A DNA stretch of 64,000 nt from Miltoncostaea marina. Lineage in GTDB: Bacteria; Actinomycetota; Thermoleophilia; Miltoncostaeales; Miltoncostaeaceae. The notes under the pieces are model-generated. The model saw only the letters and a list, made by a program, of their open reading frames with translations. It had not been told where the DNA came from and made no database searches. Position numbers and translations under genes: made by a program. Shown here piece by piece: positions 16,652 to 33,658 of this stretch; the first letter of the stretch is position 1, and each line of letters opens with the position of its first letter. The DNA lies in NCBI RefSeq assembly GCF_018141525.1, contig NZ_CP064655.1:3256501-3320500 (forward strand), given 5' to 3'.

Positions 16652-18909
16652 GACGCCGACACCACGCGGCCTTCGGGCCCGGCGAGCAGCGGCTCGGCCT
16701 GGGCGCCGTGCGCCTCGTCGTCGGTCTCGCGCGCGCGCAGCAGCACGGCGTGGGCACCCTCGAGCATGACCGCCCCCGGTCGCAGGTGGATGAACGGCGA
16801 GGCCTGGGCCATCGCGTAGGCGCCGGTCTGGCCGATCCAGACGAGGTCGCCCACCTGCAGCGGCGGCAGCGGCACCTCGCGCGCCACGGCGTCGTGCTGC
16901 AGGCACAGCGGCCCGTAGAGGTCGGTCGGCCGCTCCGCGCCCTCGCGGGGCGCCACGGCGTGCACCGGCGAGCGCTTCCACTGGACGCACGGCACCTGGG
17001 TGATGCCGACGTCGACCACCGCCCGCCCGCGGCCGCGGCGGGCCACGACCCGGGTCAGCAGCCAGCCGGCGTCGCGGATCAGCGCGCGGCCCGGCTCCAG
17101 GATGAGCGGCGGGTGGCCGGGGCCCAGCGCGGCGCGCGCGGCGTCGAGGTGGCCCGCCAGGCCGGCCGCGGCCGGCCAGCCGCCGCCCAGGTTGAGCCAC
17201 TCCACGCCCCCCAGCCGGTCGGCGACGTCGCGCAGCATGGCGGCGGCGGCGGTGAAGCGCGACACGGGCACCGGGTACTCGACGGTCACCCCGTGGATGG
17301 GCGGGCCGCTCGGCGGCAGCTCGCCGAGCTGGTACGCGCCCAGGTGCACGTGCAGCCCCGTCAGCGGCAGGCCGGCGCGCGCCAGCACGGAGGCGGCCGC
17401 CGGGGCCATGCGCGGCGGCACGCCGAAGCGGTCGCGGCCCACGCGGTCGGGCGGCACCAGGCGCAGCCCGACGCGCGCCCCCGGCGCGGCGTGCCGCGCG
17501 AGGCGGGCGATCTCCCGCACCTGCTCCGCGCCGTCGGCGACGACCGTGGCGCCCTCGGCCAGCGCCCGGCGCAGCTCGTCGGCGGTCTTAAGCGGGCCGT
17601 TGAACACGATCCGCGAGCCGGGCACGCCCGCGCGCCGGGCCGTGCGGTACTCGAAGCCCGAGGCCACCTCGGCCCAGCAGCCGGCCCGGTGCAGGCGCGC
17701 CACGAGGCCCATCAGCGGGTTGGACTTGAGCGAGTAGGCGACGGTCACGTCCGGGCCGGCCGCCGCCCGGAAGGCGAGCGCCTCGGCCTCGATGCGCGGC
17801 CCCTCGAACACGTAGAGCGGCGTGCCGAAGCGCTCCGCCAGCTCCGCCGCGCGGGCCGGCGGCCGCGGCCCGGCCGCCCGCACGACGTTCGAGCGGCGCG
17901 GCGCCGGGGCGGCCCGCCGGGGGGCCGCCGCGCGCCGGGACACGACCCGCGGCCACACCTCGGCGCCCACCCTGCCGACCTCCTCCAGGTGCGGGTAGCC
18001 GGAGGCGATCACCAGGTCGACGCCCGCCTCGCGGTACTGCCGCAGCATCGCGGCCACCTGCGCGTACGAGCCCACGAGGGCGGTGCCGGCGCCGCCGCGC
18101 ACCGCGCGGATGCCGGCCCACAGGCCGGGCGCGACCCACCCCTCGCCGTCGGCCGGGATCGCGTTCATGCGCGCCTGGCCCACGCTGTCGAAGCCGGCGT
18201 ACTCGGCCTCGCGGTCGCCCGCCACCTGCGCGCGCGAGAGCAGCTCCGCCGCGGCCTGGCGGGCCTCCCGCTCGTCCGGGCGGGCGATGATGTGGATGCG
18301 CAGGCCGAACCGCATCGGCCGGTCGGCGCGGGCGCGGACGGCCGCCACCCGCTCGGCGATGCGCTCGGGCGGCTCGCCCCACATGAGGTAGGCCTCGGCC
18401 TGCTCCAGCGCCAGATCCACGGCCGCCTCGCTGGCGCCGCCGAGGTAGAACGGCCCGCCGAAGCGGCGGCGCACCGTGCGCGCCAGCCCGGCCAGACGGG
18501 CGTAGCGCTCGTCGTGCGGCAGCGGCGGGGTGCCGTAACGCGCGTCCGGCCCGCCGCCCGCGACGAGGTTGATCGCCACCCGCCCGGGCGCGGCGCGCTC
18601 GAGCGTCTCTGCCTGGTGCGCGGCGAGCTCGGCGGCGATCCCGGCCGGGTTGACCGCGGCGATGATCCGGATCGACCGGGTCAGCGCCGCGAGCGCGCTC
18701 GCCGTCGTCCAGCTCTCGGCGAACGGCGCGTCGGGGGCGAACGAGTCGTTGACCGTGCCCGTCGGCACGAGGATCTCGGTCGCGCCGGCGCGCTCGGCGG
18801 CGCGGGCCACCCGGGCCAGGTACGCCGGCTCAGGGGCGCGCTCGGGCCTGCGGGTGCCCAGCCACCGCCCGTCGCCCTCCGAGGGGCAGTACCAGCCGAG
18901 CGCGATCAC
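16648..18909 (-). CDS. Fusion of LLM-class flavin monooxygenase and PLP-dependent decarboxylase
   Basis: 753 residues without an internal stop. Residues 1-325 are a luciferase-like (LLM) flavin monooxygenase (E-I-L-V-P-T-G-T, V-N-P-A-G-I-A, I-N-L-V-A-G-G, A-Y-L-M-W-G-E, a T-A-L-V-G-S end). After a linker rich in Ala, Pro and Arg (326-348), residues 350-725 are a fold-III amino-acid decarboxylase of the DAP/ornithine group: PLP lysine K395 in Y-S-L-K-S-N, H-L-G (522-524), G-G-G (575-577), E-P-G-R (605-608), G-P-L-C with C669, and G-A-Y (697-699). Both active sites look intact. GTG 18909 is leaderless (TAGCAT, then 6 nt). The stop overlaps fdrA. The substrate is unknown; LLM enzymes such as RutA open nitrogen rings, a possible parallel. 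Confidence 0.85.
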   Translation of the reverse strand: MIALGWYCPSEGDGRWLGTRRPERAPEPAYLARVARAAERAGATEILVPTGTVNDSFAPDAPFAESWTTASALAALTRSIRIIAAVNPAGIAAELAAHQAETLERAAPGRVAINLVAGGGPDARYGTPPLPHDERYARLAGLARTVRRRFGGPFYLGGASEAAVDLALEQAEAYLMWGEPPERIAERVAAVRARADRPMRFGLRIHIIARPDEREARQAAAELLSRAQVAGDREAEYAGFDSVGQARMNAIPADGEGWVAPGLWAGIRAVRGGAGTALVGSYAQVAAMLRQYREAGVDLVIASGYPHLEEVGRVGAEVWPRVVSRRAAAPRRAAPAPRRSNVVRAAGPRPPARAAELAERFGTPLYVFEGPRIEAEALAFRAAAGPDVTVAYSLKSNPLMGLVARLHRAGCWAEVASGFEYRTARRAGVPGSRIVFNGPLKTADELRRALAEGATVVADGAEQVREIARLARHAAPGARVGLRLVPPDRVGRDRFGVPPRMAPAAASVLARAGLPLTGLHVHLGAYQLGELPPSGPPIHGVTVEYPVPVSRFTAAAAMLRDVADRLGGVEWLNLGGGWPAAAGLAGHLDAARAALGPGHPPLILEPGRALIRDAGWLLTRVVARRGRGRAVVDVGITQVPCVQWKRSPVHAVAPREGAERPTDLYGPLCLQHDAVAREVPLPPLQVGDLVWIGQTGAYAMAQASPFIHLRPGAVMLEGAHAVLLRARETDDEAHGAQAEPLLAGPEGRVVSAS

Positions 18910-19307: not shown

Positions 19308-19661
19308 CGTCGGCTGGGACCGGGTGGTCGAGGCCCGTCCCGTGACGGGGCCGTCGACGGACCGGGTCGGCTGGGGCCGATCCGTTGCGGGCGGGACCCG
19401 GCGCCCGCTTGACGAGGTCGTCGACGGACGGGGTCGGCTGGGGCCGATCCATTGCGCGGGCGGGACCCGGCGCCCGCTTGACGAGGTCGTCGACGGACGA
19501 GGGTCGGCGGGGGCCGATCCTCTGCGCGGGCGGGACGCGGCCCTGCGGGCCGGCTCGCGCTGGGCGGGTGGTCGCGGTGCGGGGTCGGCTGGGGCCGATC
19601 CTCTGCGCGGGCGGGACCCGGCCCTTCGGGCCGGCTCGCGCTGGGCACGTCGTCGACCGGC
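19308..19661. repeat. Degenerate tandem repeat, five copies of two subtypes
   Basis: The core GGGTCGGCTGGGGCCGATCC recurs with starts at 19364, 19431, 19501 and 19582, with a decayed copy near 19308. Copies at 19364 and 19431 (67 and 70 bp) share CGCCCGCTTGACGAGGTCG. Copies at 19501 and 19582 (about 80 bp) instead end in a GGCCC-loop-GGGCC hairpin and GGCTCGCGCTGGGC. The whole unit repeats, so it is not a CRISPR array. Confidence 0.7.
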
Positions 19662-20182: not shown

Positions 20183-21166
20183 ATGGAGCAGCCGGAGCTC
20201 GGCAACCGCCCGCTCATCGCCACGGCGCGGGATCAGGCGCTGGTCCTGCCGCGGGCGGAGGTCGCCCAGGTGGCGGATCTCGCGCGGCGGGGGCTCAACG
20301 TGCTGCTGGCCGGCGAGCGGGGGGCGGGCCGCACCACCGCGCTGCACGCGGCCGCGTTCGCGCTGCGCGAGGCGGGGGGCCGGGCGGAGGTGGTCGACGC
20401 CGCGCCCGCGCGGGTTCTCGACGACGTCGTGGCGGCGATCGACGCGGCCGTGGCGCGGCACGGCGGCGACGCCGGCGGCGGCGGGGTGGCGGCGGGCGGC
20501 GGCGCGCTCGAGCGGGTGCGGCGCTGGCGGGCGCTGGACGGCTCGGTGATCGTGATGCTCGACGACCTCGCCCCGGAGCTCGCCCAGCCGCTCTTCGGCC
20601 GCCTGCGGGACGAGCTGTGGCAGACGCCCGTGCGCTTCGTGGTGGCCGCGCCGGCAGCGGACGCGGGCGCGTTCCTCACGCCGCCGGCCGACGTCTTCTT
20701 CGAGGGCCGCGTGCGCCTGGAGCCGCTGGGGGTCGCCGAGCAGCTGGAGCTGCTCGGGCGGCGGCTGCCCCCGGAGGACGCCGAGCGGGCGATGCGGGCC
20801 GTTGCCGGGGCCGGGGCGTCGACGCCGCGCGAGGTGGTCGGCCTGGCGCGGCAGGCGCTCGTGGAGGGCGCGCAGCACGACGAGCTGGCGGCGGCGGCGC
20901 GGGTGCGCAGGGAGCGCGTCGAGCGCCTCGGCCCCGCCGCCTCGCGGCTGCTGGCCGAGCTCGAGGCGGCGGGCGGCGCCAGCGCGTCCGACCCGCGCCT
21001 GCTGGAGCGGCTCGGCTGGTCGCGCCAGCGCGTCGCCCAGGTGGCCGCGGCGCTGGAGGCGGCCGGCCTGGTGGCGGCCGCGCCGGTGCGCGGCGAGGAC
21101 CGGCGGGTGCGGCGGGTGTTCACCCCGCTCGCCGTGCCCGCCCCGCCGGCGGAGGGCCACGGGTGA
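20183..21166 (+). CDS. P-loop ATPase with C-terminal winged-helix domain
   Basis: 327 residues. A Walker A motif G-E-R-G-A-G-R-T-T at residues 44-52 (Arg in place of the usual Lys) and a Walker B-like V-I-V-M-L-D-D-L near residue 120 define a STAND/AAA-type ATPase. The C-terminal 80 residues (R-L-L-E-R-L-G-W-S-R-Q-R-V-A-Q-V) look like a winged helix, as in Orc1/Cdc6-type ATPases. TACTGT lies 9 nt before the ATG, so the transcript may be nearly leaderless. The stop overlaps the next ATPase gene. No function recognised; DNA binding is plausible. Confidence 0.7.
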   Translation: MEQPELGNRPLIATARDQALVLPRAEVAQVADLARRGLNVLLAGERGAGRTTALHAAAFALREAGGRAEVVDAAPARVLDDVVAAIDAAVARHGGDAGGGGVAAGGGALERVRRWRALDGSVIVMLDDLAPELAQPLFGRLRDELWQTPVRFVVAAPAADAGAFLTPPADVFFEGRVRLEPLGVAEQLELLGRRLPPEDAERAMRAVAGAGASTPREVVGLARQALVEGAQHDELAAAARVRRERVERLGPAASRLLAELEAAGGASASDPRLLERLGWSRQRVAQVAAALEAAGLVAAAPVRGEDRRVRRVFTPLAVPAPPAEGHG

Positions 21167-22245
21167 GCCGCGAGGCCCTCGTGGAGATCCGCGAGCGCAA
21201 CGCGCTCGGGATCCGCCACTACGAAGCGCTCGAGGCGCTGCACGTGCCCTGGGACGAGCTCGTGGGCGGCAGCCGCGTGGAGGGCGAGCTCGGCCGGCTG
21301 GCGCGCAGCGGCGGGCGGGTGGCCGTGGTGGGCCCGTCCGGCACGGGCAAGTCGAGCGTGCTCGCCGCGGTGCTGGGCCAGCTCGCGCCGGGGGTGCCCG
21401 ACCACCTGGTGCCCGTGCGCATCCCCATGAGCGTGGTGGAGCGCGACGTCATCGACTCGGGCGACTTCGCGCGCCACATCGTGCGCCAGGTGATCGACTG
21501 GGCGGCGCCCGACATGCCGTCGCGGCGGGAGCGCGAGGCGCTCGAGGCGCGCATCGCCGACCTGTCGCGGCGCAGCCGGCGGCCGCGCCGGCCCGGCTTC
21601 GCGCTCAACGTGCCGCTGTCGCTCGTGTCGCCGCGCCTCGGGACGCTGACCGCCGGCCTGGCGCGCGACATCCAGGCGGCCTCGGGCGAGTGGGAGACGC
21701 GGGTGCTGGCCGGCGAGCCCTGGCGGGCGCTGGCCGACCTCGTGGAGGTGGTGCGCGGGCGCGGCCTGGAGCCGTTCTTCGTGCTCGACGACACCGACGT
21801 GTGGCTGCGGTCGGTCTACGCGGGCGAGGCCGAGGCGATCGTGCGCGGCTTCGTCGCCAACGTGCGCACGATGATCACCGAGCTCGACTGCGGCCTCGCG
21901 CTGCAGGTGCACACGGAGTACCTGGAGTACCCGGCCATGGCCGAGACGGCCCGGCGCCTGACCCTCCTCGAGCTGCCCCGGCTGCCCGACCCGCCCGCGG
22001 GGCTGGCGCGCATCCTGGGGCGGCGCCTGGAGGTGGCCGGGGTGCCGGGCGGCGTGGCCGACGCCTTCGCGCCCGAGGCGCTCGAGGCCCTCGGCGACGT
22101 CTACGGCGCCGCGGGCGACCTGCGCCTGGTGCTCGCGGTGGCCGACGAGGCGGTGGGCGAGGCGCTGCAGGACGAGGGCGCCGCCCTGGTGGGGCCGCCG
22201 GCCCTGCGGGCCGCCCAGGCCAAGCGCACGCACCTGCTCGGCTGA
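21163..22245 (+). CDS. Second P-loop ATPase of the pair
   Basis: 360 residues, GTG in a GTGA overlap with the preceding ATPase. A canonical Walker A, G-P-S-G-T-G-K-S-S, lies near residue 60 and a Walker B, F-F-V-L-D-D-T-D, near residue 205. The N-terminus has a short helical lead (R-E-R-N-A-L-G-I-R-H-Y-E-A-L). No membrane segment or nuclease motif. Unlike its partner it has an intact Lys, so the pair may combine one active and one regulatory ATPase. Family not recognised beyond AAA/STAND. Confidence 0.7.
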   Translation: MSREALVEIRERNALGIRHYEALEALHVPWDELVGGSRVEGELGRLARSGGRVAVVGPSGTGKSSVLAAVLGQLAPGVPDHLVPVRIPMSVVERDVIDSGDFARHIVRQVIDWAAPDMPSRREREALEARIADLSRRSRRPRRPGFALNVPLSLVSPRLGTLTAGLARDIQAASGEWETRVLAGEPWRALADLVEVVRGRGLEPFFVLDDTDVWLRSVYAGEAEAIVRGFVANVRTMITELDCGLALQVHTEYLEYPAMAETARRLTLLELPRLPDPPAGLARILGRRLEVAGVPGGVADAFAPEALEALGDVYGAAGDLRLVLAVADEAVGEALQDEGAALVGPPALRAAQAKRTHLLG

Positions 22246-22273
22246 CGCCCGGCGCGCCACCGGGCCCCCCTTT

Positions 22274-22289
22274 ACCCGCCTCGGCGGGT
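22274..22289 (+). terminator. Hairpin between the ATPase pair and mmpL
   Basis: ACCCGCC-TC-GGCGGGT is a perfect stem 29 nt after the ATPase stop. It may end that transcript or take part in control of the transporter gene just downstream. Confidence 0.4.
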
Positions 22290-22319
22290 GGTGCGATCCT
22301 CGACCCCAGGCATCGCACC
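22290..22319. promoter_or_regulatory. Candidate operator upstream of the MMPL transporter
   Basis: Perfect 8-bp arms GGTGCGAT and ATCGCACC are separated by 14 nt and end 13 nt before the GTG at 22333. Spacing and place fit a TetR-like repressor site, but no regulator gene adjoins it. Confidence 0.4.
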
Positions 22320-22332
22320 GACGGGGGGCGTC

Positions 22333-24576
22333 GTGGCCGACGGGGGCCGAGCGCCGGCGCGGGGGACCGGGGTCACCGGGCGCGCGGCCCGTGCCTGCGC
22401 CCGCCACCCGTGGCGCACCATCACGACCTGGGTGCTGGCCCTCGTGGTGGCGGTGCTCGCGGCGGGCGCCCTGCTCGGCGACGGCCTGACGGCCGACGAG
22501 ACGCTCAGCAACCGCCCCGACTCGGTGGTCGCCAAGGAGCTGCTCGACGAGCGCCTGGGCGAGGGCGAGCTCGGCAGCGAGGTGGTCGTCGTGCGGGCCG
22601 CGCGGCCGGTCGGCGACCCGGCGGTGCGGGCGGCGGTGGCCCGCCTGGCCCGCGACCTGCGCCGCTCGGGCGGGGCCGAGGAGGTGCGCGTCGACCCGCG
22701 GGCGCCCGGCCCCGGCCGGGTGTCGGCCGACGGGCGGGCGCTGCTGGTGCCGGTGCAGCTCGCCGAGCCGCCCGAGGACGCCGTCGAGCCGGTGATCTCC
22801 GTCGTGGAGGCGGCCGACGGACGCGACGGCCTGGCGGTGGCGATCACGGGCGAGTTCACGCTCTCGCACGACTTCGACCTGATCGCCGAGCGCGACCTGC
22901 GCGAGGGCGAGTTCCGCATCGGCTTCCCGGCCGCCCTGATCGTGCTCGTCCTCGTGTTCGGCGCGCTCGTGGCGGCGGCCCTGCCGATCGTCCTGGCGCT
23001 CGTGTCGATCGCGGTGGCGCTCGGGCTGACGGCCGTCCTCTCGCAGGGCTTCCCGCTGTCGTTCTTCGTCGTGAACATGGTCGTGGCCATGGGCCTCGCC
23101 CTGGGCATCGACTACGCCCTGTTCGTGGTGTCGCGGGTGCGCGAGGAGCGCGCCGCGGGGCGCGACCGGGTCGAGGCGATCGCGATCGCCGGGTCGACCG
23201 CCAGCCGCGCCGTGCTGTTCAGCGGGAGCGCCTTCGTGCTCGCCATGCTCGGCCTGCTGCTGGTGCCGAGCACGGTGATGCGCAGCCTCGCGGCGGGCGC
23301 GATCCTGGTCGGCATCGTGACGGTGGCGGCGGCCCTCACGCTGCTGCCGGCCCTGCTGGCCCTGCTCGGCGACCGGATCGACGCCCTGCGGGTGCCCTGG
23401 GTCGGGCGGCGGCTCGAGCGCTCGCGCCACCGGGAGGGGCGGTTCTGGGTGCGGGTCGTCCGCGGCGTCACCGCCCACCCGGCGGTGAGCCTGGCGTGCG
23501 CGGTGGCCGTGCTGCTGGCGGCGGCCTCGCCGCTCGTCACGATGGACATCGGCGCCGCCGAGGTCGGCACGCTGCCCGGCGACTCGGTCACCAAGCGGGG
23601 CCTGATCGCGCTCGAGCGCTCGTTCCCCCAGGCGAGCGCCGAGCCGGCGGAGGTCGTCGTGGACGGCCCCGTCGGCGACCCCGCGGTGCGGACGGCCTTC
23701 ACGCGGCTGGAGGCGTCGCTCGCCGCGGATCCGCGGTTCGGCCCCGCCGAGCTGGTCGAGCTGCCGGGGCGCGACCTGTCGATCATGCGGGTGCAGATGG
23801 GCGGCGACCCGCTGTCGGACGAGGCCATCGCCGCCGTGCGCGAGCTGCGCGACCGGCTCGTGCCCGCGGCGTTCGCCGGGTCCGAGGCCGACGCGCTCGT
23901 CGGCGGGCCGACCGCGCTCAACCTCGACTACTTCGACGTGATGCGGCGGTGGCTGCCGCTGGTGATCAGCTTCGTGCTCGGGCTGAGCGTGATCCTGCTG
24001 ACCGTGGCGTTCCGCTCGGTGGTGGTCGCGGCGAGCTCCATCGTGATGAACCTGCTCTCGGTGGGCGCCGCCTACGGCCTGCTGGTGCTCGTCTTCCAGC
24101 ACGGGGTGGGGACCGACCTGCTCGGCTTCCAGCAGGTGGACACGATCGAGGCGTGGGTGCCGCTGTTCCTGTTCGCGGTGCTGTTCGGGCTCTCGATGGA
24201 CTACCAGGTGTTCCTGCTGAGCCGCATCCGCGAGCGCCACACGCAGACGGGCGACACGCGGGCCGCGGTCGTCTTCGGCATCGGCTCCACCGCCCGGATC
24301 ATCACCGGGGCGGCGCTGATCATCGTGGCGGTCTTCATCGGCTTCGCCGCCGGGGACCTCGTGATGTTCCAGCAGATGGGCTTCGGCGTGGCCGTCGCGC
24401 TGCTGATCGACGCGACGATCGTGCGCTCGGTGCTCGTGCCGGCCACCATGGCCCTGCTGGGCGGGTGGAACTGGTACCTGCCGGGCTGGCTGGGATGGCT
24501 GCCGCACGTGGAGGTCGAGGGCTCGGGCGACCGCCGCGCCGCGCGCGCGCCGTCGTCCTCGGTGCCGACCTCGTAG
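22333..24576 (+). CDS. MMPL-family (RND superfamily) membrane transporter
   Basis: 747 residues with the two-fold MMPL layout: one transmembrane helix near residue 35, a soluble loop, five or six helices (about 195-360), a second loop, then five or six more helices (about 540-710). G-I-D-Y-A-L-F-V-V-S-R near 260 and L-S-M-D-Y-Q-V-F-L-L-S-R near 620 are the paired family motifs carrying the proton-relay Asp-Tyr. These proteins export lipids or drugs in mycobacteria and relatives. GTG 22333 has a G-run five nt upstream and removes a non-conserved lead. It stands alone after a terminator and a candidate operator. Confidence 0.88.
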   Translation: MADGGRAPARGTGVTGRAARACARHPWRTITTWVLALVVAVLAAGALLGDGLTADETLSNRPDSVVAKELLDERLGEGELGSEVVVVRAARPVGDPAVRAAVARLARDLRRSGGAEEVRVDPRAPGPGRVSADGRALLVPVQLAEPPEDAVEPVISVVEAADGRDGLAVAITGEFTLSHDFDLIAERDLREGEFRIGFPAALIVLVLVFGALVAAALPIVLALVSIAVALGLTAVLSQGFPLSFFVVNMVVAMGLALGIDYALFVVSRVREERAAGRDRVEAIAIAGSTASRAVLFSGSAFVLAMLGLLLVPSTVMRSLAAGAILVGIVTVAAALTLLPALLALLGDRIDALRVPWVGRRLERSRHREGRFWVRVVRGVTAHPAVSLACAVAVLLAAASPLVTMDIGAAEVGTLPGDSVTKRGLIALERSFPQASAEPAEVVVDGPVGDPAVRTAFTRLEASLAADPRFGPAELVELPGRDLSIMRVQMGGDPLSDEAIAAVRELRDRLVPAAFAGSEADALVGGPTALNLDYFDVMRRWLPLVISFVLGLSVILLTVAFRSVVVAASSIVMNLLSVGAAYGLLVLVFQHGVGTDLLGFQQVDTIEAWVPLFLFAVLFGLSMDYQVFLLSRIRERHTQTGDTRAAVVFGIGSTARIITGAALIIVAVFIGFAAGDLVMFQQMGFGVAVALLIDATIVRSVLVPATMALLGGWNWYLPGWLGWLPHVEVEGSGDRRAARAPSSSVPTS

Positions 24577-24605: not shown

Positions 24606-25970
24606 CTACGCCGTCCCGCCGCGCTCCACGATGGCGGCGATGCGCCGGCCGCGCTCGGTGCCGTACGACAGGAACAGGTCCCGGACCGCCTCGCGGTAGG
24701 CGCCCGAGGCGGCCTCCTCGATCGCGCCGGGGAGGGCGTCGGCGAAGCGCTCGACCGCCGACGGGTCGGGGTCGCTCAGGTTGACCCGGATCGTGGTGGT
24801 GGCGCCGACCTCGCCCAGCCCGTCGCCCGGGTACACGGCCACCTTGCGCCGGCAGAGCGCCACGGTCAGCTCCTGCGCGCTCGCGCCGGCGCCCGACACG
24901 TCGAGCACGCACGAGAAGCCGTACTCGGGGTCGATGACCGGCGTCGCGACCCGCCGCACGGCCGCGAGGTTGCGCCGGATCACCTCCTCGCCGGCCGCGA
25001 GGTGGCCGCGGTCCGCGAGCGCGGCCGCGGCGCCCACCTGGGCGACGCGGTTCGTGTTGAGCCGCACGGCGGCGATCTTCACCTGCAGGCAGGCGCGCAC
25101 GAGGGCGGGGTCGCCGCCGAGGGCGCCGATGCGCGCGCCCGCCATGCCGTAGCCGTGGGCGAGCCCGCTGGACACGAGCAGGGTGGCGCCGGGGTGCTCC
25201 GCCTGGACCGCCGCCACGTGGTGGTGCCGCGCCGCGGGGTCGACCCGGTGGGCCGAGTGGGTCGTGTCGGCCAGCAGCACGATGCCGCGCTCGGCCGACA
25301 GGCGCAGCAGCGCGGCGAGCTCGTCGCGCCGCTGGACGGTCCCGAACGGGTTGACCGGGTCGCAGACCACGACCATCTTCGTGCGCGGCGTGACCGCGGC
25401 GGCGACCTCGTCGGGGTCGAGCCGCCAGCCGTTGCCGGGGCCGAGGCGCACCCAGACCGGCACCCCGCCGGCCAGCCGCAGGGCGGGGACGAAGTGGAAG
25501 TAGCCGGGGTCGGTGACGATGACCTCGTCGCCCGGGTCGACGCAGGCCAGCGCCGCGTAGCCCACGCCGGCCTGCGCGCCCTCGGTGCCGATGACGTCGA
25601 AGCCGTCGTCGCGCGCGCGGCCGAGCAGCTCGGTCGCCATGAGGTCGCGCAGGCCGGCGTCGAGGTCGGGCGAGTAGGGCCCCACGTGCTCGGCGTCGAC
25701 CGCCGCCCGCATCGCCTCGAGGGCGCGCGGCGACGGGCCGATGTGGTTGGCCATCCAGCCCAGGTCGGCCCACTCGCGCCGGTCGAGGTGGATCGCCCCG
25801 TCGCGGTAGACGTCGGCCGGGTCCCAGCCGAGGATCCGGTAGGCGTCGCGGTAGGTCATGTAGTTGCCGAAGCCCTGCGGGTCCTCGAGCAGGGCCCGGG
25901 CCCGCGCGGAGGCGAGCGGCACGTCGGCCGCCGCGGGCGGCCGCCAGGTGAGCACGGAGCGCCGGCTCAC
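24606..25970 (-). CDS. Aminotransferase class I/II-fold protein with His in place of the PLP lysine
   Basis: 454 residues. The fold-I landmarks are clear: G-T-E-G-A-Q-A-G near 130, D-P-G-Y-F-H near 155, the N-P-x-G element as D-P-V-N-P-F-G (204-210) and A-D-T-T-H near 235. The Schiff-base motif S-x-S-K-x-Y-G-[LM]-A-G-x-R reads A-H-G-Y-G-M-A-G-A-R: His272 (codon CAC) replaces the lysine, while R280 is kept. Lysines elsewhere are not at the active site. Sugar dehydratases ColD and E1 use such a Lys-to-His change with PMP, but they are DegT-type. GTG 25970 overlaps the carbamate kinase stop. Function unknown; ordinary transamination is unlikely. Confidence 0.85.
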   Translation of the reverse strand: MSRRSVLTWRPPAAADVPLASARARALLEDPQGFGNYMTYRDAYRILGWDPADVYRDGAIHLDRREWADLGWMANHIGPSPRALEAMRAAVDAEHVGPYSPDLDAGLRDLMATELLGRARDDGFDVIGTEGAQAGVGYAALACVDPGDEVIVTDPGYFHFVPALRLAGGVPVWVRLGPGNGWRLDPDEVAAAVTPRTKMVVVCDPVNPFGTVQRRDELAALLRLSAERGIVLLADTTHSAHRVDPAARHHHVAAVQAEHPGATLLVSSGLAHGYGMAGARIGALGGDPALVRACLQVKIAAVRLNTNRVAQVGAAAALADRGHLAAGEEVIRRNLAAVRRVATPVIDPEYGFSCVLDVSGAGASAQELTVALCRRKVAVYPGDGLGEVGATTTIRVNLSDPDPSAVERFADALPGAIEEAASGAYREAVRDLFLSYGTERGRRIAAIVERGGTA

Positions 25971-26905
25971 AGGGCCACGATCCGGGTGCCCGCGCGCCCG
26001 GCCAGCGCGTCCTCGACGCGCTCGAGCGAGGTCACCACGGCCGCCCCGCCGCTCGCCTCGGCGAACCGGGCGGCCGCGTCGATCTTCGGCCCCATGCTGC
26101 CGGGCGGGAACTGCCCGTCGGCCAGGTGGGCGCGCGCCTCGGCCACGGTCATCGAGGCCACCGGCCGCTCGTCGGGCGTGCCGAAGTCGAGCAGCACGTG
26201 GTCGACGCCGGTCACCAGCAGCAGCGTGGTGGCGCCCACGAGGCCGCCCACGAGCGCGGCCGCGAGGTCCTTGTCGATGACCGCATCGACCCCCGCCAGG
26301 CCCTCGCCGTCGCGCACCACCGGCACGCCGCCGCCGCCGCAGGCCACCACGACCTCGCCGGCCTCAAGCAGGCGGGCGATCTCGGGCGCCTCCACGATCT
26401 CCACGGGGTCGGGCGACGGCACGACGCGCCGCCAGCCGCGCCCCGAGTCCTCGGCCACCGCCCAGCCGCGGGCGTCGGCCAGGCGCCGGGCGCGGCCCTC
26501 GGGGAAGAAGGGCCCGATCGGCTTCGTGGGCCGCCCGAACGCCGCGTCGGACCGGTCGACCACGACCTGGGTCATCACCGCGGCCACCGAGCGGGGGGCG
26601 CCCTCGGCGGCGAGCGCGTCGCCGACCGCCTGGGCGAGCAGGTAGCCGAGCTGCCCCTGGGTCATGGCGCCGAGGGCGAACAGCGGCTGCGGCGGCACCT
26701 CGCGCGCCACGGCCTCCTGCGCCATGGCGAGGGCGCCCACCTGCGGGCCGTTGCCGTGCACGATGAGCAGGCGCGCGCCGCCGGCGACGATGCGGGCCGC
26801 GTGGACCGCGACCTCGCGCGCCCGGGCCATCTGGCCGTCGAAGTCGCCGAGCCCCGCGGGCGCGAGCGCGTTGCCGCCGATCGCCAGAACCACCGTCTCG
26901 TCCAG
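25967..26905 (-). CDS. arcC: Carbamate kinase
   Basis: About 312 residues. It interconverts carbamoyl phosphate + ADP and ATP + NH3 + CO2. Family motifs: A-I-G-G-N-A-L near the start, V-H-G-N-G-P-Q-V-G, T-Q-V-V-V-D, K-P-I-G-P-F, A-C-G-G-G-G-V-P-V, D-A-V-I-D-K-D, and G-S-M-G-P-K-I-D-A-A. GGAGGGAG lies five nt before a CTG at 26905, which is therefore taken as start; GTG 26893 is the conventional alternative, 17 nt from that ribosome site. With the AllF, AllG and AllH homologues in the window it probably consumes their carbamoyl phosphate, like the dedicated carbamate kinase (YbcF/AllK) of E. coli allantoin use. Confidence 0.92.
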   Translation of the reverse strand: MDETVVLAIGGNALAPAGLGDFDGQMARAREVAVHAARIVAGGARLLIVHGNGPQVGALAMAQEAVAREVPPQPLFALGAMTQGQLGYLLAQAVGDALAAEGAPRSVAAVMTQVVVDRSDAAFGRPTKPIGPFFPEGRARRLADARGWAVAEDSGRGWRRVVPSPDPVEIVEAPEIARLLEAGEVVVACGGGGVPVVRDGEGLAGVDAVIDKDLAAALVGGLVGATTLLLVTGVDHVLLDFGTPDERPVASMTVAEARAHLADGQFPPGSMGPKIDAAARFAEASGGAAVVTSLERVEDALAGRAGTRIVAL

Positions 26906-27064: not shown

Positions 27065-27550
27065 GTGGCGAAGATCGAGGGGATGAAGCCCGAGGCCGGC
27101 CAGGAGCTCTACGACGTCTCCGAGAAGGTGTTTCCGGACATCAAGGCCGAGCCGGGCGAGGAGGCGTGGATCTTCATGCACACCGTGCCCTACGAGGGCT
27201 CGGTCGGCCTGGTCAACCTGCTGACGGCGACGCGCCTGGGCCGCAAGGGCTTCCAGGTCAACCTGGTGCTCTACGGGCCCGGCGTGCTGATGGCGTCCGG
27301 CACCCGTGGATACCCGGCCGTCGGCCAGGAGGCCTTCCCGGGCCACATGGCGATCAACAACCAGCTCAAGACGCTCCTCTCCGAGGGCGCGAACATCTAC
27401 GCCTGCCGGTTCGCCATGGGCGCGCTCTACGGGTTCCGCGAGGACGACCTCATCGAGGGCGTCAAGGCGTTCAACCCGCTGGACGTGCTCGACTCGGCCC
27501 TGACCGCCTGGCGCAACAAGGCCTTCCAGCTCAACACCTGGACGGTCTGA
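27065..27550 (+). CDS. MSMEG_0572/Sll0783-family nitrogen-starvation response protein
   Basis: 161 residues. Diagnostic stretches are F-M-H-T-V-P-Y-E-G-S-V-G, N-L-L-T-A-T-R-L-G-R-K-G-F, L-Y-G-P-G-V and A-C-R-F-A-M-G-A-L-Y-G. The family founder, Synechocystis sll0783, is strongly induced by nitrogen starvation and needed for polyhydroxybutyrate build-up there; the biochemical role is unknown. GTG 27065 has GGGAGGAG five nt upstream. It heads a tight five-gene operon (gaps of 28 and 14 nt, then overlaps) and follows a CRP-like site. Confidence 0.9.
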   Translation: MAKIEGMKPEAGQELYDVSEKVFPDIKAEPGEEAWIFMHTVPYEGSVGLVNLLTATRLGRKGFQVNLVLYGPGVLMASGTRGYPAVGQEAFPGHMAINNQLKTLLSEGANIYACRFAMGALYGFREDDLIEGVKAFNPLDVLDSALTAWRNKAFQLNTWTV

Positions 27551-27578: not shown

Positions 27579-28205
27579 GTGACCGACCGGGAGGAGACCC
27601 TCCGGCGGTGGCGATCGGGTGAGCAGCGGCTCTACCCGGTCGCCACCACCCGGCCGGACCTCTACAAGTCGGTCATCGGCGTGGTGCGCGCCGTGGCGGA
27701 CCACCTCGCCGCGGTGCCGGACCTCGACGCGCTGCTCACGACGTTCCGGAACACCGACCGCGACGCGGAGCTCGACGCGGCCGGCGTCTCCCGGCTCGAC
27801 CTCTCGCCCGAGATCGACCTCGACATGGTGCGCGACGCCGCCTACCAGGTGCGCGCCCGCGAGCTGGAGGTGCGGGCCTCCGCCGAGCGCACCGAGACCG
27901 CCATCCGGCGGGCCCGGGCGGCCGGCGAGCCGACGGCGGTCATCTGGGCCGAGGGCGAGCGCGACCTCTGGCCGCCCTACCGGCGGGTGGAGATGTCGCT
28001 CGCGACCGGGCGCGCCGTGGCGGTGACCACGGAGATGGACCCCGACACGATGATGCCCCGCTACGCGGTCGAGAGCCTCGAGCTCGATCCCGAGACGGGG
28101 GCGGTCGCCTCCGACGAGGTGCTCGCCCCGCGGCGCGAGTTCACCGACCCCGAGGAGTGGCGCGCGGCCGCCGCGGAGCTGCGCCGCACACTGCTGAACC
28201 CCTAG
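27579..28205 (+). CDS. Hypothetical protein inside the nitrogen-starvation operon
   Basis: 208 residues, not recognised and not one of the usual conserved members of this cluster. It has helical segments (L-Y-K-S-V-I-G-V-V-R-A-V-A-D-H-L), an Arg/Glu-rich coiled-coil-like middle around residues 85-115 (R-A-R-E-L-E-V-R-A-S-A-E-R-T-E), and a beta-rich C-terminal domain with P-P-Y-R-R-V-E-M-S and D-P-D-T-M-M-P-R. No signal peptide. It starts 28 nt after the Sll0783-like gene and ends 14 nt before the amidohydrolase, so it should be co-expressed with them. Confidence 0.7.
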   Translation: MTDREETLRRWRSGEQRLYPVATTRPDLYKSVIGVVRAVADHLAAVPDLDALLTTFRNTDRDAELDAAGVSRLDLSPEIDLDMVRDAAYQVRARELEVRASAERTETAIRRARAAGEPTAVIWAEGERDLWPPYRRVEMSLATGRAVAVTTEMDPDTMMPRYAVESLELDPETGAVASDEVLAPRREFTDPEEWRAAAAELRRTLLNP

Positions 28206-28219
28206 ACGACGGGAGCGAC

Positions 28220-29083
28220 GTGCCTCTTCCCGAAGGAATCAAGCGCAACGTCATCGACGGCCACAGCCACATCGGCGAGATCGAGGCCTGGCCGTTCTAC
28301 GGTATCGACTACCCCGTGAAGCCGATCGTCTACGACTTCCCGCGGACGAAGGACTTCATCAAGTTCATGGACAAGTACGGCATCGAGCGCAGCCTCGCGA
28401 TGTCGAACTACGGCATCCCCAAGCCGGAGCAGCCCTTCTCGCTGAACCCGGTCGTGATGGAGGCCGCCACGTCCAGCGACCGCATCCGCGGCCTGCTGTG
28501 GGTGTCGTTCCTGCCGCGCGACCGCGAGCACACCCTCGAGGCGCTCAAGCACTGCGGCGAGGCCGGGATCATCGGGCTCAAGACGACGTTCCTGCTGGGC
28601 GGCAACCCCAACCCGGCCGAGTGGGACGAGGAGACCAAGCAGCTCGCGGACATGTGCTTCGACGCCTGCGAGAAGCACGACTACGTCTTCCACTTCCACA
28701 CCTCGCCCGGCGGCGCGAGCGACATCAACAACTTCATCCCGATGGTCGAGGAGTACGGGAAGCGCTGCAAGATCCACCTCGTGCACTTCGGCGGGGGCGT
28801 CAGCGGGCACATCAAGCTGGTGCCGAAGTTCCTGCAGTGGGTGCGCGACGGCTACAAGGTGTACACCGACACCTCGTGGGCGGTCGGCTTCGGCGCCCGC
28901 TGGCTGCTGGTGGAGATCGAGAAGCAGGGCGTGGGCGGCGACCGGGTGATCTTCGGCTCCGACGAGCCCTGGTCCGACTTCATGAGCGAGTACTGGAAGG
29001 TGGAGGGCGCCCCGGTCTCGGAGGAGCTCAAGCGCATGGTCTTCCGGGACAACTTCGAGAAGCTCCACGGGGCGCACTGGTGA
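28220..29083 (+). CDS. Amidohydrolase 2-family metal-dependent hydrolase
   Basis: 287 residues, TIM-barrel metal enzyme of the amidohydrolase-2 (ACMSD-like) group. Metal ligands: H-S-H in D-G-H-S-H-I-G (residues 13-17), H in F-H-F-H-T-S near 155, H in H-L-V-H-F-G-G near 185, and the Asp in F-G-S-D-E-P-W near 255. GTG 28220 follows GGGAG. The stop overlaps the radical SAM gene. In related clusters of cyanobacteria and other bacteria the gene between the Sll0783 and radical SAM genes is a nitrilase; here the slot holds this hydrolase or decarboxylase. No nitrilase Glu-Lys-Cys triad is present. Substrate unknown. Confidence 0.85.
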   Translation: MPLPEGIKRNVIDGHSHIGEIEAWPFYGIDYPVKPIVYDFPRTKDFIKFMDKYGIERSLAMSNYGIPKPEQPFSLNPVVMEAATSSDRIRGLLWVSFLPRDREHTLEALKHCGEAGIIGLKTTFLLGGNPNPAEWDEETKQLADMCFDACEKHDYVFHFHTSPGGASDINNFIPMVEEYGKRCKIHLVHFGGGVSGHIKLVPKFLQWVRDGYKVYTDTSWAVGFGARWLLVEIEKQGVGGDRVIFGSDEPWSDFMSEYWKVEGAPVSEELKRMVFRDNFEKLHGAHW

Positions 29084-30228
29084 GCACCACCGCCGGCCGG
29101 CCCGACCTGCGCACGCTGGCGGTCGAGCTCCAGTCGCTGGGCGTCCGCACGACCCACGCCGACGAGGGCCCCGGCGCCACGCGCGCCGGGGGCGCCGGCC
29201 CCTCGGACGCGGGCTTCATGTGGATGGACGGCACGCCGCTCACGGTGCCCGTGCACGGCGACTACGTGGCCTCCTCGCCCTACGAGCTGGTCATGACCGG
29301 CTCCGGTCGCGCGGGCACCCTCATGCGCGACGGCGTGGAGATCGGACCGGTGCGCCTGCACCCGCGACCGAAGATCTACGACCTCCAGACGGCCGACGGG
29401 ATCCCGTACTGGAAGATCGCGCTCATGCACCTGGACAGCCTCGCGTCCACGGTCATGCAGCGCTGCGTGTACTGGGGCACCCACGAGCAGTGCCACTTCT
29501 GCGCCATCGGCACCTCGCTCGCCAACGGCCGCACGATCCCCACCAAGACGCCCGCGCTGCTGGCCGAGGTCGCCGAGGCGGCGGCGCGCCTCGACGGCGC
29601 GAAGGACGTGACGCTCACCACCGGGTCGCCGAACCGCGACGACCGCGGCGCCTCGTACATGGCCCGCTGCGCCGAGGCCATCCGCGAGGCGAGCGGGCTG
29701 CCCGTGCAGGTGCAGCTCGAGCCGCCGTCCGACTTCGGCTGGTTCGCCCGCCTCAAGGACAGCGGCGTCGAGGCGCTCGGCCTGCACCTGGAGGTGTGGG
29801 ACGACGAGGTGCTGGCGCGCGTCGCCCCCGGCAAGCACGCCCAGGGGCGCGACCGCTACCTCGCGGCGTGGGAGGCGGCGGTCGGGGTGTTCGGCCCCGG
29901 CCAGGTGTCGACGTACTTCATCCTCGGCCTCGGCGAGACGCCGGAGTCGGTGATGGAGGGCTGCCGGGCCGCCATCGACCGCGGCGTCTACCCGTTCGTG
30001 GTGCCCCTGCGGCCCGCGCCGGGGAGCATCGTGGCCGACGGCGTGCCGCCCTCGGCCGAGTACGTGCGCGAGGTCTACGAGCAGGTGGCGCCGCTGCTGG
30101 CGGAGGCCGGGATGATGAGCCAGGACGCGCGCGCCGGCTGCGTGCGCTGCCAGGCCTGCTCCGCCCTCAGCACCTTCGAGCGGGCCTTCGGCGGCGGCCG
30201 GGACGGCGTGCCCGCCCAGGGGGCGTAG
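29080..30228 (+). CDS. MSMEG_0568/Sll0785-family radical SAM protein
   Basis: 382 residues. The [4Fe-4S]-SAM cysteines have the spaced pattern of this family, C129, C138 and C141 (C-V-Y-W-G-T-H-E-Q-C-H-F-C), rather than Cx3Cx2C. Radical SAM core features follow: T-L-T-T-G-S-P-N-R near 185, Q-L-E-P-P near 208, and a second small cysteine set near the C-terminus (C354, C357, C360 in C-V-R-C-Q-A-C), possibly another cluster. GTG 29080 overlaps the amidohydrolase stop. It is a core member of the nitrogen-starvation cluster; its reaction is not known to me. Confidence 0.9.
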   Translation: MSTTAGRPDLRTLAVELQSLGVRTTHADEGPGATRAGGAGPSDAGFMWMDGTPLTVPVHGDYVASSPYELVMTGSGRAGTLMRDGVEIGPVRLHPRPKIYDLQTADGIPYWKIALMHLDSLASTVMQRCVYWGTHEQCHFCAIGTSLANGRTIPTKTPALLAEVAEAAARLDGAKDVTLTTGSPNRDDRGASYMARCAEAIREASGLPVQVQLEPPSDFGWFARLKDSGVEALGLHLEVWDDEVLARVAPGKHAQGRDRYLAAWEAAVGVFGPGQVSTYFILGLGETPESVMEGCRAAIDRGVYPFVVPLRPAPGSIVADGVPPSAEYVREVYEQVAPLLAEAGMMSQDARAGCVRCQACSALSTFERAFGGGRDGVPAQGA

Positions 30229-30728
30229 TGCGCGGGGGCGGCCTGGACGTGCGGGTCGCCCGCGACGGCGAGGACCTCGCGGCCCACCACCGGGTGCGGC
30301 GCGCGGTCTTCGTCGAGGAGCAGGCCGTGTTCGAGGGCGACGACCGCGACGCGTGGGACGACCACGCCGTCAAGGTGGTCGCCGAGCTCGACGGCGAGGT
30401 GGTGGGCGCCGTGCGCCTCTACCCCCTCGACGAGGCCGGCCTGTGGAAGGGCGACCGCCTGGCAGTGCTGCCGGCCGCGCGGCCGCGCCGGGTGGGCGCA
30501 CCGCTCGTGCGCTTCGCCGTGCGCACCGCCGGCGAGCTCGGCGGCTCGCGGATGATCGCGCTCATCCAGCGCCGCAACGTCCCGTTCTTCCAGCACCTGG
30601 GCTGGACGACGATCGGCGGCGCGGCCGACTTCCGCGGCCGCAGCCACCAGGAGATGACGATCGCCCTGGCCGGGGCGGCACCGGGCTTCGCACCCGCGGG
30701 CTACCGCTGGGCGCTCGGCGGCGCGTAG
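30228..30728 (+). CDS. MSMEG_0567/Sll0786-family GNAT N-acetyltransferase
   Basis: 166 residues. R-R-A-V-F-V-E-E-Q-A-V-F-E-G-D-D-R-D near residue 27 and V-G-A-V-R-L-Y-P-L near 65 are typical of this GNAT subfamily, and F-F-Q-H-L-G-W near 125 marks the usual C-terminal beta-bulge. The pantetheine loop (R-P-R-R-V-G-A-P-L) is near 90. GTG shares its first base with the TAG stop of the radical SAM gene. It ends the five-gene operon. Substrate is unknown; the family always travels with the radical SAM gene in this cluster. Confidence 0.88.
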   Translation: MRGGGLDVRVARDGEDLAAHHRVRRAVFVEEQAVFEGDDRDAWDDHAVKVVAELDGEVVGAVRLYPLDEAGLWKGDRLAVLPAARPRRVGAPLVRFAVRTAGELGGSRMIALIQRRNVPFFQHLGWTTIGGAADFRGRSHQEMTIALAGAAPGFAPAGYRWALGGA

Positions 30729-30759: not shown

Positions 30760-32739
30760 GTGCAGCACCCCAGAACCGGCCCCGTCCCGCGCGCCCGCGC
30801 CGTGGCGGCCGCGGCCGTCGCCGCCGCCGCGCTCGCCGCGCCGGCCGGGGGCGCGGCGGCGCCCGCCGTGCTGCCGCCGGCCGACCTCTCCGCGCCCGGA
30901 GCGACCGTGGGCGACGCCGTCGCCGCGCTCGACGGCGCGGGCGCGGCCACCGTGGTGTGGGAGCGCCGGGCCGGCGACGCGACCTCGGTCGTGGCCGCGA
31001 CGCGCGCGCCGGGCGGCGCGTGGGGCGCGCCCGCTCCGCTCTCGGCCGCCGGCCGCCGCGCCGGCTCGCCCGCCGTGGCGGTCGCGCCCGACGGGGGCGC
31101 CGTGGCGGTGTGGCGCCGCGACGACGGCGGCGGCCGGGCGACGATCGAGGCGGCGGTCCGGCCGGCGGGCGGGGCCTTCGGCGCCCCCGTCGCCCTGTCC
31201 GCGCCCGACGCCCTCGGCGCGCTACGGCCGCGCGTGGCCATCGCGCCCTCGGGCGCGGCGGCGGCGGCCTGGCTGCGCTTCGACGGCCAGCACACCCTCG
31301 TGGAGGTCGCGACCCGTCCCCCGGGCGGCGCCTTCGGCGCGCCCCGCACGGTGTCGGCGCCCGGGGCGGACGCCCTCGCGCCCGCCGTGGCGGTCGACGG
31401 CGCGGGGCGCGCGACGGTGGCCTGGAACCGCGCGGACGGCGCGGGCTCCGTCGTGCAGGTCGCGCGCGGCGACGGGGCGGCGGGCTTCACCGCGCCGGCC
31501 GACGCCTCGCGCCCGGGCGCGACGGCCTTCGGCGCCGCGGTGGGCGTCGCGCCGTCGGGCGCCGGCGTGCTCCTGTGGAGCGAGGTCGCCGCCGACGGGG
31601 CGACCGTGGTGGTGACGACGCCGCTCGGCGCCGACGGCGGTCCGGGGGCGCCGGCGACGATCTCGCCCGAGGGCGACGCGTCGACGGCGCAGGTCGCGGT
31701 CGACGGCGCGGGTCGCGCGATCGCCACCTGGCGGCTGCAGGCCGGGGGGCGCAGCGTCGTGCAGGCGGCCGAGCGCCCGGCCGGCGGCGCGTGGGGGGCG
31801 CCCGTGGACCTGTCGGCGCCCGGCGTGCCCGCCGCCGACCCGCGTCCCGCCCTGGACGCGGCCGGGCGCGCCGCGATCACCTGGCGCCGCGCCGACGGCG
31901 CCGACCCGCGCGTGCAGCTGGCCGTCCGCGAGCCCGGCGCGACGTGGGGCGCGCCGTCCGACGTCTCCGCCCGCGGGGCGGTCGTCGCGGGGCCGGTCGT
32001 GGCGCTCGACGGCGCCGGCAACGGCCTGGTCGTGTGGCGGCGCGCGCTGGGCGCGGACGACGTGGTCCAGGCCGCCGGCCTCGACGGCGCGCCCCCGGTC
32101 GTGGAGGAGCTGGCCGTGCCGGCCGCGGGCGCCGCCGGGGCGGCCCTCACCCTGCGCGTGCGGGCGCGGGACGTGTGGTCGCCGCTCGACGAGCCGGTCT
32201 GGGACGTGCCGTCGGCCACGCTCACCGGCGCGTCGGTGGTGCACGCGTTCGCCGCCGGCCGCCACCGGGTGCGCGTGCGCGTGGCCGACGCGCTCGGCAA
32301 CGCGACGACCGCCGAGGGCGCGGTGACCGTCGTCGCCGCGACGCGGCCGCAGACGGCGGCGAGCGCCCCGGTGCGCCGCCAGACCGCCGTGGCGCCCCGC
32401 GCCAGGCGGTCTCCCCTGCTGCGGGCGAGCCTGCGGCTGGTGCGTCGGGGGCAGCGGGTCGAGCTGCGGGTGCGCGGGCGCGCCGGCAGCGCCCTCGCCG
32501 GGCGGCGGCTGATCGTGGAGCGCCGCGCCGGCCGCGCGAAGGCCCCGCGGCCGCTGTGCCGCGTGCTCGTGCGCCGCTCCGGGGCGTTCGACGGCCGCTG
32601 CCGGGTGGAGCGCCTGGTGCGCGGCGGGCAGGTGCTGCGGGTGCGGGTGCGCGCCGGCTCGACGCGCGCCACGCGGGCCCGGGCGCTGCCCTGGGTCAGC
32701 CGCCGGGCGGCCCCGGCCGGTCGGCCCGCAGACCGGTGA
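30760..32739 (+). CDS. Secreted repeat protein, beta-propeller-like
   Basis: 659 residues. A signal peptide rich in Ala is followed by eight repeats of about 50 residues, each built as A-V-D-G-A-G-R-A-x-x-x-W-R-R-x-D-G, x-V-Q-x-A-x-R-P-x-G-G-A-W/F-G-A-P, L-S-A-P-G, consistent with a seven- or eight-bladed propeller. Then come an Ig-like module (residues 445-520) and a basic beta-rich C-terminal domain with two Cys. No catalytic motif. It interrupts the nitrogen-starvation gene set between the GNAT and AIR-synthase-like genes, and its last 44 bp overlap the convergent AIR gene. Function unknown; extracellular binding is likely. Confidence 0.7.
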   Translation: MQHPRTGPVPRARAVAAAAVAAAALAAPAGGAAAPAVLPPADLSAPGATVGDAVAALDGAGAATVVWERRAGDATSVVAATRAPGGAWGAPAPLSAAGRRAGSPAVAVAPDGGAVAVWRRDDGGGRATIEAAVRPAGGAFGAPVALSAPDALGALRPRVAIAPSGAAAAAWLRFDGQHTLVEVATRPPGGAFGAPRTVSAPGADALAPAVAVDGAGRATVAWNRADGAGSVVQVARGDGAAGFTAPADASRPGATAFGAAVGVAPSGAGVLLWSEVAADGATVVVTTPLGADGGPGAPATISPEGDASTAQVAVDGAGRAIATWRLQAGGRSVVQAAERPAGGAWGAPVDLSAPGVPAADPRPALDAAGRAAITWRRADGADPRVQLAVREPGATWGAPSDVSARGAVVAGPVVALDGAGNGLVVWRRALGADDVVQAAGLDGAPPVVEELAVPAAGAAGAALTLRVRARDVWSPLDEPVWDVPSATLTGASVVHAFAAGRHRVRVRVADALGNATTAEGAVTVVAATRPQTAASAPVRRQTAVAPRARRSPLLRASLRLVRRGQRVELRVRGRAGSALAGRRLIVERRAGRAKAPRPLCRVLVRRSGAFDGRCRVERLVRGGQVLRVRVRAGSTRATRARALPWVSRRAAPAGRPADR

Positions 32740-33658
32740 GCGGCTCGGCCGCGAGGTCCCACACCGGCTCCTCGCGGCCGCCCGCGGCCAGCCGCAGCCG
32801 CCCGGAGTCGTCGAGCGTGCCCACCCGGGCGGCGGTGAGGCCGGCCGCGGCGGCGCGCGCCGCGAGCGCCGCCGGGTCGCCGACCACCAGGAACCCGTAG
32901 GACGGGAAGGTCAGGAGCCAGCGCTCGAGCGGCACGCCGGGGGGCGCCGGCAGCGCGTCGAGGTCGAGGGCGCAGCCCAGGCCGCCCGCGCTCTCGCACA
33001 GCTGCAGCAGCGAGCCGGCCACGCCCGGCATCGAGACGTCGCGCGCGGCCCACGCGTCGCCCGCCTCGGCGATCGCCGCCAGCAGCAGCAGGTCGTCGCC
33101 GGCGCGGGCGGCCCGGGGGCCGCGCAGGTGGCTGAAGAAGTCGCCCTCCTCGCCCGGCAGCATCTCGCCCTCGAGGCAGACCAGCAGCGTGACGGCGTCG
33201 CCCGGCGCGGCGTTGCGCGCCGACAGCGGCGCGCGCGCGCGGCCGACCGCGAACGTGGCGAGCGCCGGCGCCAGCCCGGGCGCCACGGTGGCGTGGCCGC
33301 CGACCACCGGCACGCCGTAGCGCTCGGCCCCGCCGCGCAGGCCGTCGAGCAGCGCGTCCGCGGCGTCCGGCGCGCCCGCGACCAGGCAGTCGAGCAGGGC
33401 CACCGGGCGGGCGCCCGTGGCCGCGAGGTCGTTGAGCACCGTGACCACGCCCGCCACCCCCGCGGCCCGCGGCTGGGCGGCGACGAACGCCGGGTGGATC
33501 GCCTCGGCCGCCAGCACCAGCTCGCCCGCGCCGTCGCCGGGCAGCACGGCCGCGTCGTCGCCGTCGCCGCCCAGCGCACGGGCCACGGCGGCAAGGTCGC
33601 GCTTGCCCCGCAGACCGGGGTGGCCGTTCACGAGCCGTGCCAGAGCCGGTAGGTTCAT
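32696..33658 (-). CDS. Sll0787-family AIR-synthase-like protein
   Basis: 320 residues of the PurM/HypE/ThiL fold. The N-terminus (G-K-R-D-L-A-A-V, then D-D-A-A-V-L-P) and V-V-G-G-H-A-T-V near 125 correspond to ATP/phosphate-binding elements; D-V-S-M-P-G-V-A-G-S near 215 is the C-terminal family motif. It belongs to the AIR-synthase-related family found with Sll0783-type clusters. ATG 33658 is chosen over 33682 because TAGGCT plus 7 nt precede it (leaderless) and it matches the family start. It is divergent from allG with start codons only four bases apart. Confidence 0.88.
   Translation of the reverse strand: MNLPALARLVNGHPGLRGKRDLAAVARALGGDGDDAAVLPGDGAGELVLAAEAIHPAFVAAQPRAAGVAGVVTVLNDLAATGARPVALLDCLVAGAPDAADALLDGLRGGAERYGVPVVGGHATVAPGLAPALATFAVGRARAPLSARNAAPGDAVTLLVCLEGEMLPGEEGDFFSHLRGPRAARAGDDLLLLAAIAEAGDAWAARDVSMPGVAGSLLQLCESAGGLGCALDLDALPAPPGVPLERWLLTFPSYGFLVVGDPAALAARAAAAGLTAARVGTLDDSGRLRLAAGGREEPVWDLAAEPLTGLRADRPGPPGG

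Follow-up and report, generated by a model that had tools for sequence, protein, structure and literature searches.

The window analysed here, a stretch of 64,000 nucleotides from Miltoncostaea marina, contains an ORF with a GTG start that encodes a protein of 454 amino acids with the class I/II aminotransferase fold but without the Schiff-base lysine. This ORF lies within a cluster of genes on both strands, which we annotated as follows (positions are those of the window):

12219-13529, minus strand: CoA-disulfide-reductase-like flavoprotein
13599-14024, minus strand: OsmC-like protein
14030-15196, minus strand: MSMEG_0565 family glycosyltransferase (TIGR04047, 403 bits)
15193-16657 (start approximate), minus strand: AllF/FdrA-like subunit, in two frames in the window genome
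16648-18909, minus strand: luciferase-like flavin monooxygenase (N-terminal) fused to a DAP-decarboxylase-like fold-III PLP enzyme (C-terminal)
24606-25970, minus strand: the Lys-less aminotransferase-fold protein
25967-26893, minus strand: carbamate kinase (TIGR00746, 358.4 bits, cut-off 358.25), whose stop overlaps the start of the aminotransferase-fold gene as GTGA (25967-25970)
27065-27550, plus strand: NitB-like MSMEG_0572/Sll0783 family protein (TIGR04044, 199 bits)
27579-28205, plus strand: conserved protein c12, no assigned function
28220-29083, plus strand: amidohydrolase-2 family protein (PF04909)
29080-30228, plus strand: radical SAM protein of the MSMEG_0568 family, NitD-like (TIGR04043, 418 bits)
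30228-30728, plus strand: GNAT acetyltransferase of the MSMEG_0567 family, NitE-like (TIGR04045)
32696-33631, minus strand: AIR-synthase-like protein of the sll0787 family, NitF-like (TIGR04049, 224 bits, below the cut-off of 321)
33699-35048, plus strand: AllG-like oxamate carbamoyltransferase subunit (PF06545, 196 bits)

Several features of the locus are particular to the window genome or lie at the edge of the cluster. The two halves of the fused flavin monooxygenase/DAP-decarboxylase-like ORF are separate genes in relatives. The frame of the AllF/FdrA-like gene shifts near a C/G-rich run (15690-15815) and the gene is a single ORF in the same-genus relative L116, and the two-frame gene may reflect a frameshift, a split gene or an assembly error; the ORF at 15693-16757 (c17) was rejected as a gene, since it runs across the AllF-like gene in the wrong frame. 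A G+C-rich tandem repeat array (19343-19617; period ~69, 2.9 copies, 91% match) separates the fused gene from an inserted ATPase/MMPL segment (20183-24576), and the gap at the place of this insert is only ~1.9 kb in L116. In addition, a dTDP-glucose 4,6-dehydratase gene (RmlB; TIGR01181, 442 bits; 35868-36863, minus strand) at the cluster edge may mark where a deoxysugar locus begins.

Aminotransferases are defined by their Schiff-base lysine. A Pfam search assigned the window protein to PF00155 (122 bits, E 4e-35, 335 residues covered), compared with 42 bits over ~100 residues for PF01041 (DegT), and showed one domain only, with neither an effector nor a DNA-binding module beside it. The PDB matches returned by phmmer were aspartate aminotransferases (AspATs), the top ones being 18-26% identical to the window protein. 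In the phmmer alignment, LVSSGLAHGYGMAGAR of the window protein lay opposite CSGFAKTYAMTGWR of the Phormidium AspAT 1j32; therefore, H272 occupies the Schiff-base lysine position, and reading the minus strand gave CAC as its codon, just as the earlier note had described. An AlphaFold2 model built from a 37-row alignment (pLDDT 88.3, pTM 0.89) had the T. thermophilus AspAT, the Phormidium AspAT and a prephenate aminotransferase as its best Foldseek matches, with TM scores up to 0.84 (target length). The PF00155 match and the AspAT matches from phmmer and Foldseek also bore out the placement of the protein in the Asp-aminotransferase branch.

Homologues were sought by single-protein search of genome contigs and by profile and protein searches of sampled genomes. 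The family was discrete: full-length members reached at least ~650 bits with the family profile, and no other protein exceeded 176 bits. It was also rare: members were found in 16/399 genomes of the class Thermoleophilia, in 22/58 of the Dadabacterial group and in 1/301 Chloroflexota, 1/299 Pseudomonadota and 1/199 Bacillota sampled genomes, the last three matches being genomes already known as carriers. Forty distinct His-type sequences were recovered, 44-85% identical to the window protein and at least 41% identical to one another, and His272 was present in every one (codon CAC in 24, CAT in 16). Their hosts are Thermoleophilia, including one member of the Miltoncostaeaceae, the family of the window genome; Dadabacteria/Desulfobacterota; and one Chloroflexota (Dehalococcoidia) MAG. 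One genome of the Dadabacteria group (G611) holds two His-type copies (L118 and L119) in two partial clusters. Six further members (L046, L047, L048, L049, L051 and L055) carry Lys272 and form a sister clade from Pseudomonadota and Bacillota (Rhizobium herbae, Pararhizobium, Rhodobacteraceae, Rhodospirillaceae and Tissierellia). These Lys-type proteins show 35-50% identity to the His type and share the T237-H238 pair and other family residues with it; their genes adjoin a GntR/PhnR-like regulator where checked, and the Lys-type protein was not found in a search of plasmids. The active-site positions compared across both clades and 18 outgroup proteins were the following:

25155-25157, minus strand: CAC codon of His272, which aligns with the Schiff-base Lys258; His in 40/40 of its own clade, Lys in 6/6 of the sister clade and in 18/18 outgroup proteins
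25266-25268, minus strand: Asp235, equivalent to Asp222 (pyridine nitrogen); invariant among His-type proteins, replaced by Asn in every Lys-type relative
25257-25259, minus strand: His238, at the Tyr225 position; His in 46/46 across both clades, in the outgroup Tyr in 17 and Phe in 1
25350-25352, minus strand: Asn207 of NPFG, equivalent to Asn194; invariant
25131-25133, minus strand: Arg280, equivalent to Arg266 (phosphate); invariant
24786-24788, minus strand: Arg395, equivalent to Arg386 (alpha-carboxylate); present in 38/38 His-type sequences that reach this position and in 6/6 Lys-type

Furthermore, Y99 (equivalent to Tyr70*) is invariant throughout the His clade. The window protein reads 'DTTH', ending in H238, where 'DEIY' is usual, and T237-H238 marks the family as a whole. 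The only fully conserved lysine is Lys298, invariant in 46/46 family members and mostly replaced by other residues in the outgroups; the family alignment contained no lysine conserved specifically in the His clade and no invariant cysteine. The earlier note had called the change a single clean substitution unlike decay, with R280 and the N-P-F-G element retained, and this description now extends to the whole clade, in which His is fixed and the remaining cofactor and carboxylate residues are invariant. One member, from genome G019 (L016/L117) and not counted among the 40, has lost exactly the H272 codon (SGLA-GLGLAS) while retaining every other position that is at least 97% conserved in the His clade, and it still lies in a full gene cluster. 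This lineage may recently have become inactive; alternatively, the gene may be retained for another role, or the His may not be essential there.

The pyridine-nitrogen Asp is near-universal in PLP fold-type I enzymes. The six Lys-type members all combine Lys272 with Asn235, whereas His-type and outgroup proteins have Asp at that position, and the outgroup reads Lys/Asp/Tyr (or Phe) at 272/235/238. The Lys-type sister enzyme is thus also out of the ordinary, and its reaction is probably a different one. With columns 235, 238 and 272 left out of the tree, support was 100/100 for the whole family and 100/99 for the Lys clade, and weak (55/17) for the His clade by itself; with the Lys outgroup, one Lys-to-His change suffices. 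The earlier note had reasoned that homologues with Lys at this position would reduce the histidine to a sporadic mutation or an error. Such homologues do exist, but they group apart in a clade of their own, where D235N co-varies with the lysine and the gene neighbourhood differs; the change to His is therefore not a sporadic one. The probability of a chance mutation, a sequencing or assembly error or a pseudogene is negligible, as nothing beyond the view from a single genome spoke for it and 40 distinct His272 homologues with intact ORFs rule it out. The window gene is a member of a small, ancient aminotransferase-like family with a strictly conserved His in place of the essential lysine.

At least one gene of the cluster was found in each of the 37 His-type loci and in none of the six Lys-type loci; of these six, four span 15-17 kb. 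The cluster comprises Nit1C-like genes, AllF/AllG/AllH-like subunits with carbamate kinase, a fold-III decarboxylase and a flavin or haem-oxygenase-like oxygenase. Among the His-type loci, the decarboxylase occurred in 28 and a methyltransferase in 27. The earlier claim of coupling to carbamate kinase held for the window, where the two genes overlap, but the kinase makes up just one part of the neighbourhood: it was found in 17/37 His-type loci, some of these loci being short contigs. Three versions of the cluster were distinguished. Version A (the window type, and in part Dehalococcoidia) has the order carbamate kinase, aminotransferase-fold protein, flavin monooxygenase, decarboxylase, AllF, glycosyltransferase, OsmC and CoA-disulfide reductase, with divergent NitB, c12, amidohydrolase, radical SAM and GNAT genes. 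Version B (other Thermoleophilia) reads carbamate kinase, AllF, glycosyltransferase, OsmC, four-helix protein, methyltransferase, aminotransferase-fold protein, decarboxylase and CoA-disulfide reductase. Version C (Dadabacteria) reads NitB, radical SAM, CoA-disulfide reductase, AllH, glycosyltransferase, OsmC, AllF piece, four-helix protein, methyltransferase, aminotransferase-fold protein, in some cases a cysteine-synthase-like protein, and decarboxylase. The four-helix protein (L056:6550-7113, 188 aa, unannotated, and its homologues) has a predicted fold (pLDDT 92) whose nearest solved structures are the haem-oxygenase-like dimetal oxidases CADD and BesC (TM 0.6-0.75, E only 3e-3). Because version A has the flavin monooxygenase in place of the four-helix protein, they may be alternatives for the same oxidation step. 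The occurrence of AllF/AllG/AllH and carbamate kinase pieces suggests a carbamoyl-phosphate step in the cluster pathway, which could run in either direction.

The family, its fixed His, the intact pocket, the split into two clades and the cluster are established at the level of sequence, and the family probably performs chemistry different from that of ordinary aminotransferases within an unstudied gene cluster. We favour a noncovalent PLP/PMP enzyme that acts on an amino or keto acid by means of His272 (probability about 0.6, judged from conserved residues), because the pyridine Asp and the phosphate and carboxylate residues are intact. Such a Lys-less branch of the class I/II fold would bind its cofactor, PLP or PMP, noncovalently; His272, at the former Schiff-base position, would act in acid-base catalysis and move a proton between C-alpha/C4' and the substrate, a putative alpha-amino or alpha-keto acid gripped by Arg395. 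The reaction might be a one-way PMP/PLP half-reaction or an elimination of the dehydration, deamination or cyclisation type, elimination being our best guess for a His272 enzyme. A substrate intermediate may be oxidised, at a step whose order we can only guess, by the neighbouring flavin enzyme (version A) or haem-oxygenase-like enzyme (versions B and C), in a pathway that would also include the fold-III decarboxylase and a transcarbamylase/carbamate-kinase module of the AllFGHK type. That the family is a naturally Lys-less, His-based PLP/PMP class of the AspAT branch, working in a multi-phylum pathway of Nit1C-type and carbamoyl-phosphate genes, we regard as an even bet.

A special case of the favoured reading, brought up in the earlier note, is PMP-dependent dehydration like that of ColD and E1, in which PMP would condense with an alpha-keto acid bearing a beta-leaving group, His272 would take the C4' proton and the group would be expelled. 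The identical Lys-to-His swap in ColD, E1 and SpnQ makes this plausible by analogy, the Asp kept at the pyridine nitrogen would favour carbanion chemistry, and the leaving group could be installed by the cluster oxygenase. However, ColD belongs to the DegT branch, Arg395 points to a carboxylate substrate rather than a sugar, and no amino-donor partner was identified, so we consider it unlikely in this specific form. The invariant pocket might also serve binding without catalysis, and the protein could be a regulatory binder of PLP (or a PLP-amino acid) or a scaffold of a cluster enzyme complex, consistent with the absent Schiff-base lysine and with the loss of even the His in one lineage (L016). 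Yet residue 272 is a fixed His rather than a drifting position in 40 sequences, the other pocket residues are invariant and the single domain offers no effector or DNA-binding module, which leaves a non-catalytic role rather doubtful. A relocated lysine, either Lys298 or one from the partner subunit, might instead form the internal aldimine; the family-wide invariance of Lys298, mostly not Lys in outgroups, pointed that way. Since Lys298 is equally invariant in the six Lys272 relatives, it did not arise as a replacement, and the AlphaFold model places it in the helix that follows the active-site loop, making this explanation very improbable.

For the noncovalent His272 enzyme that we favour, the closest structural references are the Thermus and Phormidium AspATs (1bjw, 1j32; PF00155), which have the same fold and the Tyr70*, Asn194, Asp222, Arg266 and Arg386 equivalents, but whose Schiff-base Lys and Tyr225 are replaced here by His272 and His238. 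Slow half-reactions persist in the K258H variant of aspartate aminotransferase. As for natural fold-type I enzymes with His at the Schiff-base position, the examples that we were able to document are sugar dehydratases from a different branch, and they set a precedent for the proposed role of His272: in ColD, E1 and SpnQ the Lys-to-His swap gives PMP enzymes in which His is the acid-base residue (PMC8987622). They are likewise natural active-site swaps, but in the sugar-aminotransferase (DegT-type) branch and on nucleotide sugars, whereas the window protein keeps the carboxylate Arg; membership of the ColD family was rejected on the Pfam branch (PF00155, not DegT/PF01041). E1 and SpnQ also carry a [2Fe-2S] cluster on four cysteines, of which the window family has no invariant counterpart. 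The window family represents a second, independent Lys-to-His branch; a search of the open-access literature found no Lys-less class I/II aminotransferase, which is no proof of absence. With a sister clade that keeps Lys, swaps at positions 272 and 235 offer a direct test of how lysine-free B6 chemistry evolved. For the proteins of both clades, the NCBIfam models with better scores included PRK06225, GntC (guanitoxin cyclodehydratase) and VioD (capreomycidine synthase). GntC and VioD are PLP cyclodehydratases, which speaks for the favoured reading, but the window protein scored far below their cut-offs (123 bits vs 415 and 67 vs 391, respectively); the VioD-like actinobacterial relatives that we fetched have Lys, Asp and Tyr/Phe.

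In E. coli, AllF-AllG-AllH form the oxamic transcarbamylase, encoded in one operon with the carbamate kinase AllK (PMC11326118). The window has the AllF-like gene in two frames, AllG-like and carbamate kinase genes and no tblastn match to AllH, whereas Dadabacteria have AllH-like genes, AllF pieces and, in some, carbamate kinase; all three subunits were not found in one locus in any genome examined. The Nit1C cluster had no known function when first described (PMC1199592) and has been tied to cyanide assimilation in Pseudomonas (PMC11049912). Homologues of NitB, NitD, NitE and NitF (the last below cut-off) and the MSMEG_0565 glycosyltransferase occur together in the window. The cluster also provides an entry point to Nit1C-type genes; what these do overall has been an open question since 2005. 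The best match in the window genome to the Nit1C nitrilase (subfamily 1, NitC/Nit6803; TIGR04048) reached 161 bits against a cut-off of 503 and lay outside the cluster, and a canonical Nit1C with nitrilase was rejected. Because the genome has no nitrilase above the curated cut-off, the window cluster is best described as Nit1C-like minus the nitrilase, with PLP enzymes and transcarbamylase genes added.
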